Positions 3,690 through 18,232 of a DNA stretch of 20,277 bases are shown here, one piece after another (position 1 is the stretch's first letter; the number at the start of each line of letters is the position of its first letter). Both the position numbers and the translations under genes were made by a program. The stretch spans positions 1 to 20,277 of IMG/VR virus record IMGVR_UViG_3300030117_006295. One strand, 5' to 3'. The notes beneath the pieces are model-generated. The model made no database searches and was not told where the DNA came from. It saw only the letters and a list, made by a program, of their open reading frames with translations. This stretch comes from a virus.

Positions 3690-5194
3690 AAGTCTTCTCC
3701 TATGTTGTATTGATATTCCGAATCTTGATTCGTAATATATAATTTGTTTTTTGCTCGGGTCACACCAACAAAGAACAAACGATGTTCTGTGTCTTTATTT
3801 ACTTGAGCAGATTCGTAAATAATTCTTTCTAAGTCTGTAAACAAAATAACATTTTCAGACTCTTCACCTTTAACAGAGTGTATTGTGGAAACTTTAATAC
3901 GTGCAGGTTTGTTTAGATCCTCGCCGCTTGCTACTAGACTCTCGATATATCGACGTTGAGCTTCTGACACATTTAAAACAGTCCAGTCACCAGAGACTAA
4001 TAAGCCGTGATCTTGTTTTAATTGATTTAGGTCAACTGAATCTATTTGAGCATAATCTTTACTTTTAAAACCATGTTTGATATCTTTCTTGGTTAAAAAA
4101 CTATATAAAAGATTTACTTCCTCTCCGCTAACATTTGCACCTTTATTTAAACGATCCCAGATATTAATTGCTTCCAATAAACTACTAGGTAATAAGTCGT
4201 TGTATTTACAATCAAAACGATGTCCTGTGTCATGCAAGTGTTCTACAATCGGTTTCATTTGTTCGTTAGTTCTTGTTAAAATTAACCACTGACCTTGACT
4301 CAAATCAATGTCAGGTAAATCTAAATGGTCAATGACTTCTCCTTCGTAGTCTCTAGGTTGCCATTCTTTATCCAAACGCTCTTGAACATGTTCTAAGATT
4401 GACAAAGCAACTTTATGCACTGCTCTTGGAACTCTTACGGACTGAGTTTGTGCATCAATAATACCACGTAAGTTTATAAATTCAGAAGGAGAGGCACCTT
4501 GAAACGTATAGATAGCTTGATCGTCATCCCCTGCAATGTAAGATCTTTTACACTGAGACTCAATGTAATAGAACATCTTCCACTGCAAAGGATTCAGATC
4601 CTGAGCTTCATCGAGAAAAACTACATCAAGGGATGGTGATAAGTCTTTCTCAACAAACTTGGTCAACATGTCAGAAAATTCATACATGTTATAGAATTCT
4701 TTATAATCTTTTAAATCTTGTTCAATTTGTAAAAGTAAATTATCATCAATGTGAATATCAAATTCTAATTCTGTTGCTGCATCTAACACATCAATTTGTT
4801 TTGCTCTGGCATACTCAATAATTTTCATGTATTCATTTTTGTAATTTCTATATCCAGACTCGGAGTGATAGTTTTCAAAAGACATATCTTTGCAAATCAC
4901 AGAAAAATTTTTAAAATCGTTCCAATTTTTTCCGTTTAATAGTTGGGCTGATGTATCTAAACCTAAAGCACGAGTGCCCATGGCATGCATGGTTGAGATG
5001 TAATCAAATTCATGTCCTGGAAATCTTTGATAAATTCTTGACTTTGCTTCTTTTGTTGCTGCATTACTAAATGTAATGTATGCAATTTTTTTAGAATCTG
5101 TTTTAAGATTAAATAATTCATGGTGTAAATATTTATTAATTAAGGTATGTGTTTTACCTGTGCCAGGAGGTCCAGGAATAATAGTCCTGGTCAT
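3686..5194 (-). CDS. Superfamily 1 DNA helicase, UvrD/Rep type
   Basis: This 502-aa ATP-driven helicase shows the SF1 motifs in order: Walker A GPPGTGKT (8-15, K14), motif Ia ITFSNAATKEAKSRI (40-54), a STMH element (67-70), Walker B VVFLDEAQD (191-199), motif III AGDDDQAIYTFQGA (221-234), an arginine-containing SVRVPR (252-257), motif V VSTIHSVKGEE (435-445) and motif VI HRLFFVGVTRAK (471-482, R480). At about 500 aa it is shorter than cellular UvrD (about 720 aa) and closer in size to phage helicases such as T4 Dda. It probably unwinds DNA or removes proteins during phage replication or recombination. The ATG overlaps the primase stop (ATGA) and its own stop overlaps the DUF3310 start. Confidence 0.96.
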   Translation of the reverse strand: MTRTIIPGPPGTGKTHTLINKYLHHELFNLKTDSKKIAYITFSNAATKEAKSRIYQRFPGHEFDYISTMHAMGTRALGLDTSAQLLNGKNWNDFKNFSVICKDMSFENYHSESGYRNYKNEYMKIIEYARAKQIDVLDAATELEFDIHIDDNLLLQIEQDLKDYKEFYNMYEFSDMLTKFVEKDLSPSLDVVFLDEAQDLNPLQWKMFYYIESQCKRSYIAGDDDQAIYTFQGASPSEFINLRGIIDAQTQSVRVPRAVHKVALSILEHVQERLDKEWQPRDYEGEVIDHLDLPDIDLSQGQWLILTRTNEQMKPIVEHLHDTGHRFDCKYNDLLPSSLLEAINIWDRLNKGANVSGEEVNLLYSFLTKKDIKHGFKSKDYAQIDSVDLNQLKQDHGLLVSGDWTVLNVSEAQRRYIESLVASGEDLNKPARIKVSTIHSVKGEESENVILFTDLERIIYESAQVNKDTEHRLFFVGVTRAKNKLYITNQDSEYQYNIGEDL

Positions 5195-6711
5195 TTTTCA
5201 AATTCAGCTTTCTTTGTTTTGTTTTTTCTTATAATTGGTTTTTTAAGTTCTAGTCCTTTGACCTGCCAAACTTTTACACTTTCTTCACCGATCTTTTTAA
5301 CAACAGACTCTGCTTGAAATAAAGTTTGTATTAAGCGTAAAGTTTTGTGTTGATTGTATGTTTTATCTTGCCATTGTTTAGTGGCCATTAAGTATCTCCA
5401 GAAGTCTTTAAATTTAAACCAACTATGGCCATTTTCTGTAAATGCTTTTCTTTTCAACACATCTTCTAATTGTTTTCCATTTTTACTTACAAAGTCTGTG
5501 AGTGCAGTTTGTAAAATTACATCGATACGCATATCATCTGGTGCTGGAATAGGGTCATCCATTTCTGCTAATAATTTATTTATTCTTTTCTTCCACATCA
5601 TTTTGTTTGTTGATAATAGTGTTTTACGAATATATATCATTGCATGTTTAGAAAATTTATCTGGGTCATGTAACGTGTCCGGATCACACTCCATAGTTTC
5701 ACCATCTGCAGTTACAAAATAAATTGGAGGATCCGAATCTAACATTCTAATTCCTGTAATATCTACATCAGGTGATCCTAATTTACCGAACTTTCTTGTA
5801 AAACAAAGTTTATCATTACAAAAATTACAAATCGGTTCATCTTTACATTTGTAATCATAATCTTTTTTATTAAGTGAACTAATTGTTTTAGTAACCTCAT
5901 CTCGTTTCATTGGTGGACTTACAAATTTTTCTGTATTGTAACTATCTATTTTGTTTTCCCAACCTGTTGGGTCAACCTTTTTTAAATATACACCAATATT
6001 ATATAAATAATTATTACGACCACCTTCCAATACTGCACCTTGTTTTGCGATTGTCTGTAGACACGGTGGTCCATCTGGAAAGTCTGAAGTTTCTTTTGTG
6101 TTTTGTGTTAACTGTAAACTTTGCAATCCTACTTTTGATATTACATGCTCTTCGTAATATTTAAAAAATTTATCCATAGACAACGCTTGTCCACCGTCAT
6201 CAAAAGCAAACCTAATTGATTTATCTCCACCATGATATGGCATGTTTAAAAAACTACCAACATCTCCTCGTTCTGCTTTTATCGTGTTTTGTTTTGGAAA
6301 AACTTCTGCCTTCGAATGACCTATGATAGATGCCATTTGTATTAATCTATTTCTCATTAAAATGGCAGGGACAAATTCTTTTGTAAAACAAAAGACGTGT
6401 GCTCCACCTGATTTTGATCTAAAAACAATCAAAGGTAATTTTTGTTCTCTTATTTTTTTAATTAAAGCGAGATGATCAAAAGTATAAGTATCAATATCAA
6501 TGCAACCCCATTTACATTCATTATCCTCATTAATTGGAATAATGCCCAATGCAGGTTCCCGCCCCTTAATGTGTTCCTCCCAAAGTTGATCTGTAACTGG
6601 TTTTTTAATTGTAAATGATTTAACTTCAGCTTTACCATCGGACCGAATTTCGTTGGTAATTTTAGTTTGACCATACGCACTTTCTAATCCTTTAAAAATT
6701 TCTTTCAACAT
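5191..6711 (-). CDS. AEP-type primase (TOTE/PrimPol-like) with Cys4 zinc motif
   Basis: With the start at 6711 this is 506 aa. The N-terminal half has the archaeo-eukaryotic primase signature: CIDIDTYT with the metal-binding pair D72/D74, then FRSKSGGAHVF (SGGAH at 101-105) and VFPKQNTI (138-141) followed by GSFLNMPYHGG. A GGRNNYLYNIGVYLKK helix (about 231-246) resembles the PriCT-like part that follows such domains. A C-x5-C-x2-C-x4-C cluster (C290, C296, C299, C304) followed by RKFG is a likely zinc-binding element. It would make primers, possibly also copy DNA. No Walker A is present, so it is not a primase-helicase fusion. The frame is open to 6750, but those 13 extra codons would run through a hairpin, while ATG 6711 has an AAAGGG site; I choose 6711. 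Confidence 0.9.
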   Translation of the reverse strand: MLKEIFKGLESAYGQTKITNEIRSDGKAEVKSFTIKKPVTDQLWEEHIKGREPALGIIPINEDNECKWGCIDIDTYTFDHLALIKKIREQKLPLIVFRSKSGGAHVFCFTKEFVPAILMRNRLIQMASIIGHSKAEVFPKQNTIKAERGDVGSFLNMPYHGGDKSIRFAFDDGGQALSMDKFFKYYEEHVISKVGLQSLQLTQNTKETSDFPDGPPCLQTIAKQGAVLEGGRNNYLYNIGVYLKKVDPTGWENKIDSYNTEKFVSPPMKRDEVTKTISSLNKKDYDYKCKDEPICNFCNDKLCFTRKFGKLGSPDVDITGIRMLDSDPPIYFVTADGETMECDPDTLHDPDKFSKHAMIYIRKTLLSTNKMMWKKRINKLLAEMDDPIPAPDDMRIDVILQTALTDFVSKNGKQLEDVLKRKAFTENGHSWFKFKDFWRYLMATKQWQDKTYNQHKTLRLIQTLFQAESVVKKIGEESVKVWQVKGLELKKPIIRKNKTKKAEFEK

Positions 6712-6715
6712 ACAT

Positions 6716-6721
6716 CCCTTT
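6716..6721 (-). promoter_or_regulatory. Ribosome binding site deciding the primase start
   Basis: AAAGGG stands 4 nt before the ATG at 6711 (about 6 nt counted from the AAGG core). The alternative start at 6750 has no comparable site, since it would need one within the end of the upstream gene. This supports MLKEIF as the true N-terminus. Confidence 0.7.
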
Positions 6722-6726
6722 ATGTG

Positions 6727-6748
6727 GGGCGCTAGTTTCCTAGCGCCC
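6727..6748 (-). other. Perfect 9-bp RNA hairpin with GAAA tetraloop
   Basis: Arms GGGCGCTAG (6727-6735) and CTAGCGCCC (6740-6748) are perfect complements separated by four bases. In the minus-strand transcript the loop reads GAAA, a GNRA tetraloop, on a GC-rich stem in an otherwise AT-rich region. It lies 8 nt after the stop of the 239-aa gene and just before the primase ribosome binding site. There is no T tract on either side, so it is not a standard intrinsic terminator. It could protect the 3' end of the upstream message, mark an RNase cut site or tune primase translation. Confidence 0.85.
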
Positions 6749-6756
6749 AATTGTGG

Positions 6757-8437: not shown

Positions 8438-9865
8438 ATGAATTATAAGTTTAAAACAAAGCCATTTTTACATCAATTGAAGGCTTTAGAAATGTCATGG
8501 AAAAGACAAGTTTTTGCCTATTTTATGGAGATGGGTACAGGTAAATCTAAAGTATTAATTGATAATATTTCAATGCTTTATGACAATGGTAAAATTAATG
8601 GTGTCTTAATTGTGGCACCCAAAGGTGTGTATAAAAATTGGTATTCTGATCAAATTCCCATTCACATGCCCGATCACATAGAAAAAACAGTTGTTTTGTG
8701 GGAGTCTAGTAAAAATAAAGATGCAGAATATAAAAAATTATTTGAGTCGTCAGATAATTTACAAATTTTAATTATGAATGTTGAGGCTTTCTCCACACAA
8801 AAAGGTAAAATATTTGCTACAAAATTTTTAAATTGTCACAAAACTATGATGGCAGTTGATGAGTCAACTACAATTAAAAATCCTGGTGCGATTAGAACTA
8901 AAAATATTATTAACCTTGGTAAACACGTAGCTTACAAAAGAATTCTTACTGGGTCACCGGTTACAAAATCACCGCTTGATTTATTTACGCAGTGTTTATT
9001 TTTAGATCCTTGGTTGCTTGATCAACAATCTTATTATGCCTTTAGAACAAGGTATGCTATCTGTAAAAAAATAAATGTATCTGGCCGTTCAATTGAAATT
9101 GTAGTTGGTTATAGAAATCTTAATGAGTTAACAGAAAAAATAAAACCTTTTTCATATCGATGTTTAAAAGATGATTGTTTAGATTTACCAAGTAAAACAT
9201 ACATGAAGCGTACGATTGTCTTAACATCTGAACAAAAGAAACTTTATAAAGATATGAAAGAAAAAGCCATTGCTTTTTTAAACGGTAAAATGGTGTCGTC
9301 TGCAACAGTTATTACTCAGTTGATGCGACTACATCAAATCACTTGTGGTCATTTTAAATCTGATGATGGTGATATACAAAATATAAAATCAAACAGAATA
9401 AATGAGCTCATGAATGTGTTAGAAGAGATTGAAGGTAAGGCTATAATTTGGGCTCATTACCGACATGATATTGAAACAATTGTAAAGGAGGTTCAAAAAA
9501 AATATGGAGAAAATTCAGTCGTTACTTATTATGGTGATACTTCCATTGAAGATCGTCAAAAAGCGATTACAAAGATTCAGGATATATCCAATCCTGTTAG
9601 ATTCTTGGTCGGAACGACACAAACAGCAGGATACGGAATCACGTTAACTGCTGCATCCACTATGATCTATTATTCAAATGGATATGATCTTGAAAAGCGT
9701 CAGCAATCAGAAGCTCGTATTGATCGTATTGGTCAAGAAAAACCAATGACTTACATTGATATTATTTGTGAAGAAACAATTGATGAAAAAATTGTTGCAG
9801 CCCTTCGTAGAAAAATAAACATTGCTACTAAGATCATGGGTGAAGAATTAAAAAAATGGATTTAA
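8438..9865 (+). CDS. SNF2-family DNA-dependent ATPase / helicase-like protein
   Basis: This 475-aa SF2 protein has two RecA-like lobes. Lobe one: Q-like region KPFLHQLKALEMSW (8-21), Walker A EMGTGKSK (31-38, K36), motif Ia LIVAPKGVYKNW (57-68), DExx box AVDEST (139-144) and motif III LTGSPVTKSPLDLF (170-183). Lobe two: IIWAHYRHDIE (336-346), YYGDTS (364-369), motif V VGTTQTAGYGITLTAAS (391-407) and motif VI QQSEARIDRIGQ (422-433, R427 and R430). This matches phage SNF2-like ATPases that move along or remodel DNA in replication, repair or removal of bound proteins. No fused nuclease is present. It is the only large plus-strand gene, with its own promoter, and its stop overlaps that of the convergent 35-aa gene. 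The upstream AGAAAG is a weak ribosome binding site. Confidence 0.95.
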   Translation: MNYKFKTKPFLHQLKALEMSWKRQVFAYFMEMGTGKSKVLIDNISMLYDNGKINGVLIVAPKGVYKNWYSDQIPIHMPDHIEKTVVLWESSKNKDAEYKKLFESSDNLQILIMNVEAFSTQKGKIFATKFLNCHKTMMAVDESTTIKNPGAIRTKNIINLGKHVAYKRILTGSPVTKSPLDLFTQCLFLDPWLLDQQSYYAFRTRYAICKKINVSGRSIEIVVGYRNLNELTEKIKPFSYRCLKDDCLDLPSKTYMKRTIVLTSEQKKLYKDMKEKAIAFLNGKMVSSATVITQLMRLHQITCGHFKSDDGDIQNIKSNRINELMNVLEEIEGKAIIWAHYRHDIETIVKEVQKKYGENSVVTYYGDTSIEDRQKAITKIQDISNPVRFLVGTTQTAGYGITLTAASTMIYYSNGYDLEKRQQSEARIDRIGQEKPMTYIDIICEETIDEKIVAALRRKINIATKIMGEELKKWI

Positions 9866-9969
9866 TCTTTTTTATTTGAAATATCTTTGTAAAAATCTGT
9901 CCAAAAAACTTGAACATTTTTTAAGTAACCTGTCCAAAATTCTTTTACCTGTGCGTAAGTTGGGAACAT
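9862..9969 (-). CDS. 35-aa micro-protein with a tandem FWT repeat
   Basis: This short gene has a complete set of signals: a promoter at 10031-10003, an AAGGAG site (9981-9976) 6 nt before the ATG, and a TAA stop. The peptide starts MFPTYAQ and then contains two 11-residue units, VKEFWTGYLKN and VQVFWTDFYKD, before ISNKKD. It is aromatic, amphipathic and probably helical, with no transmembrane segment. Its stop codon interlocks with that of the convergent SNF2 gene over 4 nt (9862-9865). I know no function. A membrane-surface or protein-binding peptide, a small regulator or an inhibitor of a host protein are all open. Own promoter plus strong ribosome binding site suggest high expression. Confidence 0.8.
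   Translation of the reverse strand: MFPTYAQVKEFWTGYLKNVQVFWTDFYKDISNKKD
9897..9939 (-). repeat. Direct repeat encoding the FWT duplication
   Basis: CTGTCCAAAA (plus-strand reading) occurs at 9897-9906 and 9930-9939, exactly 33 nt apart. The offset of 11 codons matches the duplicated peptide unit, so the repeat probably arose from an in-frame tandem duplication inside the 35-aa gene. Confidence 0.75.
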
Positions 9970-10002
9970 AATAATCTCCTTGTTTATATTGCTTTGCAAC
10001 AA

Positions 10003-10031
10003 AATATAGAGGGTACTTAGGGTCGTGTCAA
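10003..10031 (-). promoter_or_regulatory. Strong sigma70-type promoter for the 35-aa gene
   Basis: TTGACA (10031-10026), a 17-nt spacer and TATATT (10008-10003, 5 of 6 consensus bases) form a near-ideal bacterial promoter on the minus strand. Transcription would start near 9996, giving a leader of about 27 nt that holds the AAGGAG site. It lies in the 101-nt gap between the 70-aa membrane protein stop (10071) and the micro-gene. No terminator follows the micro-gene, so transcripts may run antisense into the SNF2 gene. Confidence 0.75.
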
Positions 10032-10070: not shown

Positions 10071-10283
10071 TTATAGTAAATTTAGTCCTTTTGCAGCTAA
10101 AAAGGCTAATCCAGTAATAATCAGCCCTAAAACATAATCTATTTTTTTGGATGTTTTATCTATGTCTTGGTGCATATGTTTAAGATGATTATTCTTTATT
10201 GAATGAATATCTTTTTTTAAACCTGTAATGTAACCATATAAAGCTACAATATGTTCACCAGTTGTTTTAGGTTCTTTTGCCAT
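10071..10283 (-). CDS. Small C-tail membrane protein, holin candidate
   Basis: The 70-aa product has a soluble N-terminus (MAKEPKTTGEHIVALYGYIT), a polar helix rich in Lys, His and Asp (22-48, heptad-like, likely coiled coil) and one C-terminal transmembrane helix (about 50-66, YVLGLIITGLAFLAAKG). This topology resembles XhlA-like phage proteins that assist lysis. It is the last gene of the virion operon, a common place for holins, but no endolysin is visible nearby, so the lysis role is inferred. Its ATG overlaps the stop of the 1339-aa gene (TAATG). An alternative is a membrane-associated virion or ejection factor. Confidence 0.85.
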   Translation of the reverse strand: MAKEPKTTGEHIVALYGYITGLKKDIHSIKNNHLKHMHQDIDKTSKKIDYVLGLIITGLAFLAAKGLNLL

Positions 10284-16258: not shown

Positions 16259-17823
16259 TATGCTACTCTATTTTCTAGCTCCTTCATTGTGTCATACATC
16301 TTTTGTGCACCTTTTTCAATGCTTCCGTCTCCTGCACCTTTGACTGCATCAGCTGTCATGACAAATTCGTTTTTAGATAACATTGCTGGAACATCATCTG
16401 CTTTTTCTTTTATACCCACAGGCACAAAACCACCTGTTTCTCTGTAATCTCTTTCCATAATTCCTGCTGCATTTGTTTTCATAATACCTGTTGGCATATC
16501 AACTTGACCACCCTTTGCTAAACCTGGTAGATCTTGAAAAGCTTCTCTTGCTTTTCGTGCAGCTTCTTCTTCAGAAAAACCCTCTTCTAAAAATTCTTCA
16601 AAAAGCTTTTCTAATAATCTTTCGTTGTATTCATTAGATACCATCATGATACCACTCTTGTCTTCACTACCATTTGCAAGACCTACACGGCCACCTAATG
16701 CATAACCTAAGTTAGAAGTCGTTCTAGATAGAAAATCATCTAACTCAGCACCAGAATAAAAATTACTACCATATTGTCGTAAAAATTTTGTGACATCTGC
16801 TCGTCTTTGTGTAAATTCTGCTGCAGTTTCATCTTCTTGTTGTTCTGGGCTAAAGAAAAAAGGTGCAGCGGTTAGTGCTCCTAAAAGAACTTTTGGTGCA
16901 TTTTGTTTATCTGTTACATAATCAGCTAAACCACTTGCTGCTCCACTAATATCTCTATCCATTAAACTTCTTCCTATGTCTGCTAAAGTTGTTCTATTCG
17001 TTAGTTGTGCAAGAGGTGTTCCTCCTGGTCCCACTGGATCTCCTCTTCCTAAAAATTGTTCAACAGTTCGAGCAGCTTCAGCCTCAGCCAAATCTCCTGC
17101 ACTCTCTGCTTGAACGGCTTCAGCTCTTGCAGTTCTAAACGCTGCTCTATCTTTTGGTGTTAATTCAGCTGCTTGCGCAGTTCCTGTGATATTAAAATCT
17201 CGATCACTCGTTGGAGCAAGAAGTCTAGCTTCATCGAAAGTATCGAGTAATGGTCGATCTGAAACACGCGGTCCGCTAGCTGGAATAAATTGACCTTCTG
17301 CAAACTCATCAATACCAGATAATTGTTCAGCGCTTTGCATTGTTTTATTACCGTCTAGATAATCTGTTGTATCAAAACCCTCTTGTCCTGGAATAACACT
17401 TGGTGGTGAAAGTCTATCTTGTAACGCTCCTACACCTGCAAATAAACCACCAGCTAATGCAGCTTGTTGTAAATTAACATCTCTTCCGGTAGCAAGATTC
17501 GTTCCAATATTTGTAAGAGAACCCACAGCAGCTCTTTGTAATGCTTCATTTTGTATTCCTGAAATACCAGGGATATTAGGAACAGCAGCACCAATACCTC
17601 CAGCAACCAATGCGCTTTTTAAATCAACATCACCACCTGAAAGTTTAGTTGCAGCAGCGTTTATTAAAGCTCTATTTAACGCTTGGTTAATAAAACCAGT
17701 CCCTTTAAGAAAAGAAAATTGTGGTCCAAAAACAGCTAGACCAAGTTGTCCAACAGGACTACTAACAATTTTTTTAATTGGTTTAGTTACTTTTTTTACA
17801 ACTTTTTTAACTTTCGAGCCCAT
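16258..17823 (-). CDS. Phage virion protein with conserved GIM / EFVMTADAV C-terminus
   Basis: The preferred start gives 521 aa (MGSKVKKVVKKVTKPIKKIV), a very basic N-terminus. A longer frame to 17865 exists, but ATG 17823 has AAAAGGA just upstream. Residues 27-135 are glycine/alanine-rich and contain a duplicated unit (LSGGDVDLKSALVAGG and LATGRDVNLQQAALAGG). A charged helical region (about 215-265) follows. The C-terminal 140 residues hold GGRVGLANGS, an acidic coiled helix (LLEKLFEEFLEEGFSEEEAA), KGGQVDMPTGIMKTN, and then RDYRETGGFVPVGIKEKADD and LSKNEFVMTADAVKGAG. I recall this C-terminal module from many marine phages as a virion component of unknown role. It overlaps the HlyC-like gene by 17 nt and the next gene by TAATG. 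Confidence 0.9.
   Translation of the reverse strand: MGSKVKKVVKKVTKPIKKIVSSPVGQLGLAVFGPQFSFLKGTGFINQALNRALINAAATKLSGGDVDLKSALVAGGIGAAVPNIPGISGIQNEALQRAAVGSLTNIGTNLATGRDVNLQQAALAGGLFAGVGALQDRLSPPSVIPGQEGFDTTDYLDGNKTMQSAEQLSGIDEFAEGQFIPASGPRVSDRPLLDTFDEARLLAPTSDRDFNITGTAQAAELTPKDRAAFRTARAEAVQAESAGDLAEAEAARTVEQFLGRGDPVGPGGTPLAQLTNRTTLADIGRSLMDRDISGAASGLADYVTDKQNAPKVLLGALTAAPFFFSPEQQEDETAAEFTQRRADVTKFLRQYGSNFYSGAELDDFLSRTTSNLGYALGGRVGLANGSEDKSGIMMVSNEYNERLLEKLFEEFLEEGFSEEEAARKAREAFQDLPGLAKGGQVDMPTGIMKTNAAGIMERDYRETGGFVPVGIKEKADDVPAMLSKNEFVMTADAVKGAGDGSIEKGAQKMYDTMKELENRVA
17431..17661 (-). repeat. Internal duplication in the 521-aa virion protein
   Basis: Residues about 55-81 and 103-131 share the pattern Thr-x-Leu-(Ser/Ala)-x-Gly-x-Asp-Val-(Asp/Asn)-Leu-x-x-Ala-Leu-x-Ala-Gly-Gly, roughly 50 residues apart. 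The copies are diverged in DNA. Glycine/alanine-rich repeats of this kind often form membrane-active or packed helical segments, which would fit a DNA-ejection role, but that is inference. Confidence 0.65.
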
Positions 17824-18232
17824 AATGTCCTTTTGTAAATCTTTTTGTTTTTCTGTAAACTTCACCGTTTGGTGATACTCGTAACCAGCTTACATATTTA
17901 TTTAATCCTAATAACTCAGTAAAATATTTTTTAGTCCAACGGTGAACTTTTATAATATTACCTATACAAACTGTATCGATGTGCCATGGTCGATTACCAC
18001 TGTTCCAATCACCCGGTTCTAGCTCGGTTGTTTTTAAATATCTATTTTCAGCTTCTTTACTTAAAAAAGCCCAGTTTGTAAAAGCAATCACGTTTTCTCC
18101 GTCCTTGTGTATTTTATACTGTTCTAATTGAAAAGATGGCAAGATATGTTGGTAGAGTTCTTCATAGGTGTTATCTTTATATCGATCAAACTTTTTGTAT
18201 AGTTCGACAACAACCTGCATATCGTCATTCAT
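17807..18232 (-). CDS. HlyC-like (toxin-activating acyltransferase fold) phage protein
   Basis: The 141-aa product resembles RTX toxin-activating lysine acyltransferases of the HlyC family: ILPSFQLEQYKI (30-41; HlyC has LPAIQANQYVL), IAFTNWAFLSKEAENRYL (49-66; HlyC has AYCSWANLSLENEIKYL) and GDWNSGNRPWHID (74-86; HlyC has EDWTSGDRKWFID). D86 matches the catalytic Asp of HlyC. The catalytic His (H23 in HlyC) seems to be replaced; the matching position is near Y18. The family uses acyl-ACP to acylate lysines of RTX toxins, but no RTX protein is visible here, so the substrate is unknown and activity is doubtful. It could be a structural relic or modify a virion protein. It overlaps the next gene by 17 nt. 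Confidence 0.82.
   Translation of the reverse strand: MNDDMQVVVELYKKFDRYKDNTYEELYQHILPSFQLEQYKIHKDGENVIAFTNWAFLSKEAENRYLKTTELEPGDWNSGNRPWHIDTVCIGNIIKVHRWTKKYFTELLGLNKYVSWLRVSPNGEVYRKTKRFTKGHYGLES
17828..17834 (-). promoter_or_regulatory. Ribosome binding site deciding the start at 17823
   Basis: AAAAGGA stands 4 nt before ATG 17823. The in-frame ATG at 17865 lies deeper inside the upstream gene and lacks such a site. The Lys-rich MGSKVKK terminus also agrees with related N-termini I recall. Confidence 0.7.

Follow-up and report, generated by a model that had tools for sequence, protein, structure and literature searches.

What can a virus gain from a peptide of 35 residues, and can the DNA around its gene reveal the purpose? 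Small phage genes are mostly unclassifiable, the peptides being too short for homology; in the case described here the control site supplies a clue. The gene lies on the minus strand of a viral contig of 20,277 nucleotides (IMG/VR record IMGVR_UViG_3300030117_006295), and this whole stretch is referred to as the window. Its frame occupies 9862-9969, as given in the first-pass annotation of this DNA, and runs from an ATG (9969-9967) to a TAA (9864-9862), encoding MFPTYAQVKEFWTGYLKNVQVFWTDFYKDISNKKD (35 aa). The complete promoter and ribosome binding site that the annotation had assigned to it were both located on the minus strand: a -35 hexamer TTGACA (10026-10031), a 17-nt spacer and a -10 hexamer TATATT (10003-10008), together 11/12 matches in the promoter scan (10031-10003), followed by the Shine-Dalgarno sequence AAGGAG (9976-9981), 6 nt ahead of the ATG. 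Promoter-type matches as a whole were not enriched across the region (7 found versus 9.3 expected); unlike these, the microprotein promoter is conserved among homologues, with TTGACA retained in the loci L003, L006, L010 and L011 and absent from relatives that lack the gene. Homologues of 94 to 53% identity were found. Stops, frameshifts or missing conservation, any of which the annotation had taken to count against the gene, were looked for in these homologues and not encountered, and the purifying selection that it had asked about is indicated by pairwise dN/dS values of about 0.1-0.4. The frame is a true, selected gene with its own punctuation.

The gene sits in a variable slot bordered on one side by a convergent gene for a SNF2-type helicase (8438-9865, plus strand), whose stop codon overlaps that of the microprotein, and on the other by a gene for a conserved 70-aa protein (10071-10283, minus strand). 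Homologues occupy the equivalent slot in L003, L006, L010 and L011 and were found in two further neighbourhoods of relatives of this phage, namely in L163 and in L203, where the copy adjoins a homologue of the window gene at 843-1517. Another copy directly follows an Hsp20 gene in the T4-like phage L157, giving in total three gene neighbourhoods among pelagiphage relatives and one T4-like phage. Among the close relatives, presence is patchy: the microprotein is absent and the site nearly empty in three (L005, L009, L012), a different short stretch replaces it in seven (L001, L002, L004, L007, L008, L013, L014), and an Hsp20 gene occupies the slot in two (L015, L016). The microprotein gene with its promoter-operator is therefore an accessory cassette, found at differing places in differing phages. 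As for the carrier, the window helicase shares 71% nucleotide identity with HTVC027P, and PolA and AEP-type primase domains are encoded as well; the HTVC023P type is marked by its helicase and PolA. Possessing PolA, a SNF2/DEAD-type helicase and a primase as found in this type, the carrier resembles an HTVC023P-type pelagiphage.

Some further features of these phages were observed. The Hsp20 gene that follows the 70-aa gene in L015 and L016 (about 4180-4500) has a similar promoter. The stretch before the helicase in the seven relatives with a replaced slot is conserved, and its opposite strand could encode a short hydrophobic peptide, for which the candidate in L001 is MKAIVVLFIAFLAISFIHFLA (translated by eye). 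The window itself encodes a HlyC-type RTX toxin acyltransferase domain (PF02794, E 4e-17) among structural genes at 17810-18232 (minus strand), and the AEP domain of its primase at 5194-6750 (minus strand) is of the TOTE conflict-system type (PF22548).

The peptide belongs to no known family, in agreement with the first-pass annotation: searches of Pfam, PHROGs and NCBIfam with the peptide and its relatives gave nothing significant, a peptide search detected no copy in INPHARED phages, and a search of solved structures gave no meaningful match. The pattern FPT[YF]xQVKx[FY] had 26 matches in bacterial genomes, about the estimated chance number, and none was titled SAR11. A host ancestor of the microprotein was not found, as a peptide profile run against 367 genomes of the SAR11-like order introduced below gave weak partial matches, mostly within large proteins or very short.

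Earlier, the peptide had been described as a duplicated FWT unit. Two 11-residue units, VKEFWTGYLKN and VQVFWTDFYKD (9883-9948, minus strand), do follow each other with a 33-nt period and are identical at 23/33 nt in the window, a value reached by 0/1000 codon shuffles; residue shuffles reach the 5/11 identity in 0.9%. The repeat is thus real, but in diverged homologues the two units match at only 18-19/33 nt and 3-4/11 aa, which led us to reject a fresh tandem duplication and to read the repeat as an 11-residue period, old or constrained, of a single amphipathic helix. As 11 residues correspond to three helical turns, the Phe, Trp and Tyr residues stay on one face. The helical hydrophobic moment was significant for the window peptide (p 0.0065) and for all 13 microproteins tested (p 0.001-0.018 at 98.2 deg per residue), and AlphaFold predicted a single helix spanning residues 5-33 (pLDDT 88). 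By these predictions, the microprotein is one amphipathic helix with an aromatic face.

The repeat had stood in the heading of the first-pass annotation; it exists, but the informative part is a palindrome that had been left out, GTTGCAAAGCAAT (GTTGC-N3-GCAAC, 9988-10000). It lies in the stretch between the -10 hexamer and the Shine-Dalgarno sequence, TTGTTGCAAAGCAATA, and within a candidate PhaR-type operator, TTTGTTGCAAAGCAATATA (9985-10003, minus strand), that overlaps the expected transcription start. Because an operator-like palindrome covers the start site, the promoter seems to be regulated, and the high expression formerly ascribed to the gene does not follow from its signals. A 46-aa reading with a TTG start would begin at the palindrome and is unlikely.

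Across 1.38 Mb of retrieved loci, GTTGCNNNGCAAC occurred solely upstream of microprotein copies, including that of L163 with its different neighbourhood. Viral contigs were then scanned with the pattern TATAWT-palindrome-GGAG, that is -10, palindrome and Shine-Dalgarno sequence; the searches covered IMG/VR, INPHARED and genome samples, the viral fragments being incomplete. The pattern matched 29 contigs, and in 23/29 it is followed by the start of a 34-50-aa amphipathic microprotein. These are mostly unrelated in sequence to that of the window (e.g. MFDFEKQYKDALEKFEVITKQTKDAYEFWYNCVMDTWKDLYSDPKKK), and all that were tested are amphipathic. The genes next to them, which were identified by eye from their translations and include RusA, a Dcm-type methyltransferase and terminase, suggest several phage backgrounds; a search for the hosts of these phages by DNA similarity matched no isolate. 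The remaining 6/29 contigs did not fit, three having no frame and three a protein of 55-61 aa that contains a hydrophobic stretch. In the latter three (L200, L206, L215) the palindrome between -10 and Shine-Dalgarno sequence has the loop TTA, and their differing product reflects either chance or a second class. A control palindrome of like make-up matched seven contigs with 0 microproteins, and the same spacing gave an unrelated short frame in 2 of about 121 cases without the palindrome versus 30/35 with it (redundant loci). Similarity between the HTVC-type microproteins and those of the other phages is weak (hhalign probability 58%), and for this reason common ancestry of the families is not claimed.

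Palindromes of this kind are known as binding sites of PhaR. For PhbF, the Herbaspirillum PhaR, footprinting has given the motif TG[N]TGC[N]3GCAA, and in R. eutropha the start site of phaP is bound by PhaR (PMC3206438); the PhaR of Bradyrhizobium recognises TGCRNYGCASMA, from which PHB releases it (PMC6201568). The core of the phage site, TGTTGCAAAGCAA, matches the PhbF motif exactly and is located at -10/+1. Some SAR11, chiefly of brackish and freshwater clades, have pha genes and make PHB (PMC12113158). For the host side we used an order of small low-GC genomes, reached via the PhaR-carrying genome G364, whose size, base composition and gene content lead us to infer that they are SAR11; neither a 16S probe for SAR11 nor the SAM-V riboswitch had a match in the Pseudomonadota sample or in G364. 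PhaR (PF07879) is present in 7/117 genomes of this SAR11-like order. In 5/7 of these, TTGCNNNGCAACATA is found at -10/+1 of phaP in the form of TATATTGCNNNGCAACATA or a near copy, and the phaP promoters of the other two have a variant five-base spacer. In a set of 15 genomes, all five intergenic TTGCNNNGCAACAT sites were phaP promoters, and the 10 others lay in coding DNA.

A motif was trained solely on the five host phaP promoter sites and scanned over phage DNA. Its best match in the window (17.7 bits versus 9.9 for the next unrelated site) was the microprotein site, which likewise came first in the twelve other operator-bearing phage loci scanned; L157 had no match. On its own, a match as good as 17.7 bits is expected in about 1.3% of random sequences of 20 kb; what carries the operator argument is the position of the site and its recurrence in unrelated phages. 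The operator combined with a strict -10 and Shine-Dalgarno sequence gave three matches in 247 genomes of the SAR11-like order and three in 398 Pseudomonadota, mostly chance-like; this pattern missed host phaP because the phaP leader is longer than it allows. The identity of the candidate operator as a PhaR site is well supported by these sequence comparisons.

Two observations were made on bacterial loci. In a PhaR-positive bacterium (L245, about position 1500, plus strand), TGTTGCAGTGCAACA lies just upstream of a gene for a patatin-like protein, a possible PhaR target. In L258 and L259, two more TTGCNNNGCAA palindromes lie between the divergent phaC and phaP genes, which suggests several PhaR sites.

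We propose, with a probability of roughly 60%, that the gene encodes a virus-borne phasin-like micro-protein (a mini-phasin) that is placed under the PHB-sensing repressor PhaR of the host and acts at the PHB granule. Going by the identity of the operator, host PhaR would bind the TGC-N3-GCA palindrome over -10/+1 and block the phage promoter; PHB granules would titrate PhaR off the DNA, and the gene would be on only when the infected cell has PHB. Both the titration of PhaR by PHB and the repression of phaP by PhaR are established for PhaR elsewhere. The Phe/Trp/Tyr face of the 35-aa helix may then bind the granule or its lipid or protein coat, as its helical form, aromatic face and regulatory company suggest. 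The bound peptide would compete with or replace phasins, which bind PHA via amphipathic helices and whose gene phaP is under PhaR (PMC5658603). The most likely outcome would be exposure of the polymer, the store being burned for phage production; protection would be the alternative direction, and mobilisation is preferred because it suits the needs of a lytic phage. The earlier view that such peptides act on host proteins or membranes holds in so far as an aromatic helix likely acts at a surface, but its generic target is superseded by the PhaR/PHB-granule hypothesis. Several findings speak against a mini-phasin: the L157 copy has no operator, which means that the peptide is usable without PhaR; PhaR is scarce in the SAR11-like genomes, and two of the seven phaP promoters deviate in their spacer; 11 microproteins had no Pfam or NCBIfam phasin match at E up to 10, and the peptide is far shorter than known phasins. 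More tentatively, and at slightly less than even odds, phages belonging to two or more bacterial groups may have gained micro-phasins independently or by gene exchange, in the form of 34-50-aa helices that have a host PhaR operator and act on PHB granules only when polymer is held, their expression being tied to the carbon reserve.

Among the alternatives, the one that fares best, though we consider it unlikely, accepts that host PhaR controls the gene and takes PHB only as a sensor of host condition, the helix acting on the inner membrane or a host enzyme, e.g. by tuning lysis or metabolism. Membranes, too, are bound by amphipathic aromatic helices, and both the T4-like copy without operator and the absence of phasin homology would be in line with it. 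It fits less well with an operator and helical design common to sequence-diverse microproteins, and with the phasin being the gene under that operator in SAR11-like genomes. Still less probable is a palindrome unrelated to PHB that forms a 5' mRNA hairpin or serves another regulator, with the microprotein as a generic early host-takeover peptide. GUUGCAAAGCAAU does fold as the terminal stem of the transcript, and phaR was absent from all 25 phage records examined. However, the host phaP promoters keep the TTGC/GCAA core even though their outer pair (ATTGC...GCAAC) cannot form in RNA, and consequently it is the sequence that is conserved and not the pairing; the fold of the whole leader is ordinary (z -0.01), Rfam gave no match, and the palindrome is the same as a site footprinted for the PhaR family. 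A chance or non-functional frame, which its shortness might suggest, is contradicted already by homologues that are free of stops down to 53% identity, evolve under the low dN/dS given above and share start and Shine-Dalgarno sequence in separate gene neighbourhoods, and its probability is negligible.

Through the operator, microproteins of diverse sequence and from several types of phage are brought together and linked to a known host sensor, so that viruses may tap the carbon-store sensor of their host. Should the mini-phasin reading be true, the bioplastic stores of abundant aquatic bacteria are read and manipulated by viruses, and the motif in the DNA is a tool for finding more such genes and for predicting PHB-making hosts.

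Phasins (PhaP; Phasin_2, PF09361, and related families) resemble the microprotein in their amphipathic helices with a hydrophobic face, and phaP of SAR11-like genomes has the same TTGC-N3-GCAA operator and promoter position. The window peptide shares the helix by prediction (hydrophobic moment p 0.0065, pLDDT 88); it differs in being phage-encoded, a single helix of about 4 kDa without a sequence match, and in that its binding of PHB is a proposal. Phasins measure about 11-25 kDa, with examples of 12.6-20.4 kDa (PMC5658603), and at 35 aa the microprotein does not count as a phasin by either its sequence or its size; it would be phasin-like in action only if it binds granules. Perilipins have helices of 11-mer repeats that coat lipid droplets, according to two reports (PMC5889406, PMC10238389). 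They share with the microprotein an 11-residue amphipathic repeat, in their case on the coat of a storage droplet, but they are eukaryotic and long, and the likeness is an analogy only. To the regulon of PhaR/PhbF, a PHB-titrated repressor (PF07879), the microprotein gene appears to fit by operator sequence (TG[N]TGC[N]3GCAA over the start site), position and host parallel, with the difference that the regulated gene is viral and the virus has no phaR in its examined sequence. Phage auxiliary metabolic genes for PHA (phaC, phbB and others) are described from PHA mixed cultures in a report that makes no mention of phasin or phaP (PMC12013262); a report of a phage phasin was not found in the open-access literature, which does not prove absence. 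Those genes are, like the proposed microprotein, aimed at host PHA metabolism, but they encode enzymes homologous to host genes, whereas the window gene specifies a micro-protein and has the operator of a host sensor. The placing of phage genes under operators of the host has a precedent in cyanophage genes under host PhoB. There, likewise, a virus reads a nutrient regulator of its host; in the present case regulator and nutrient are different, and the product is a new micro-protein.
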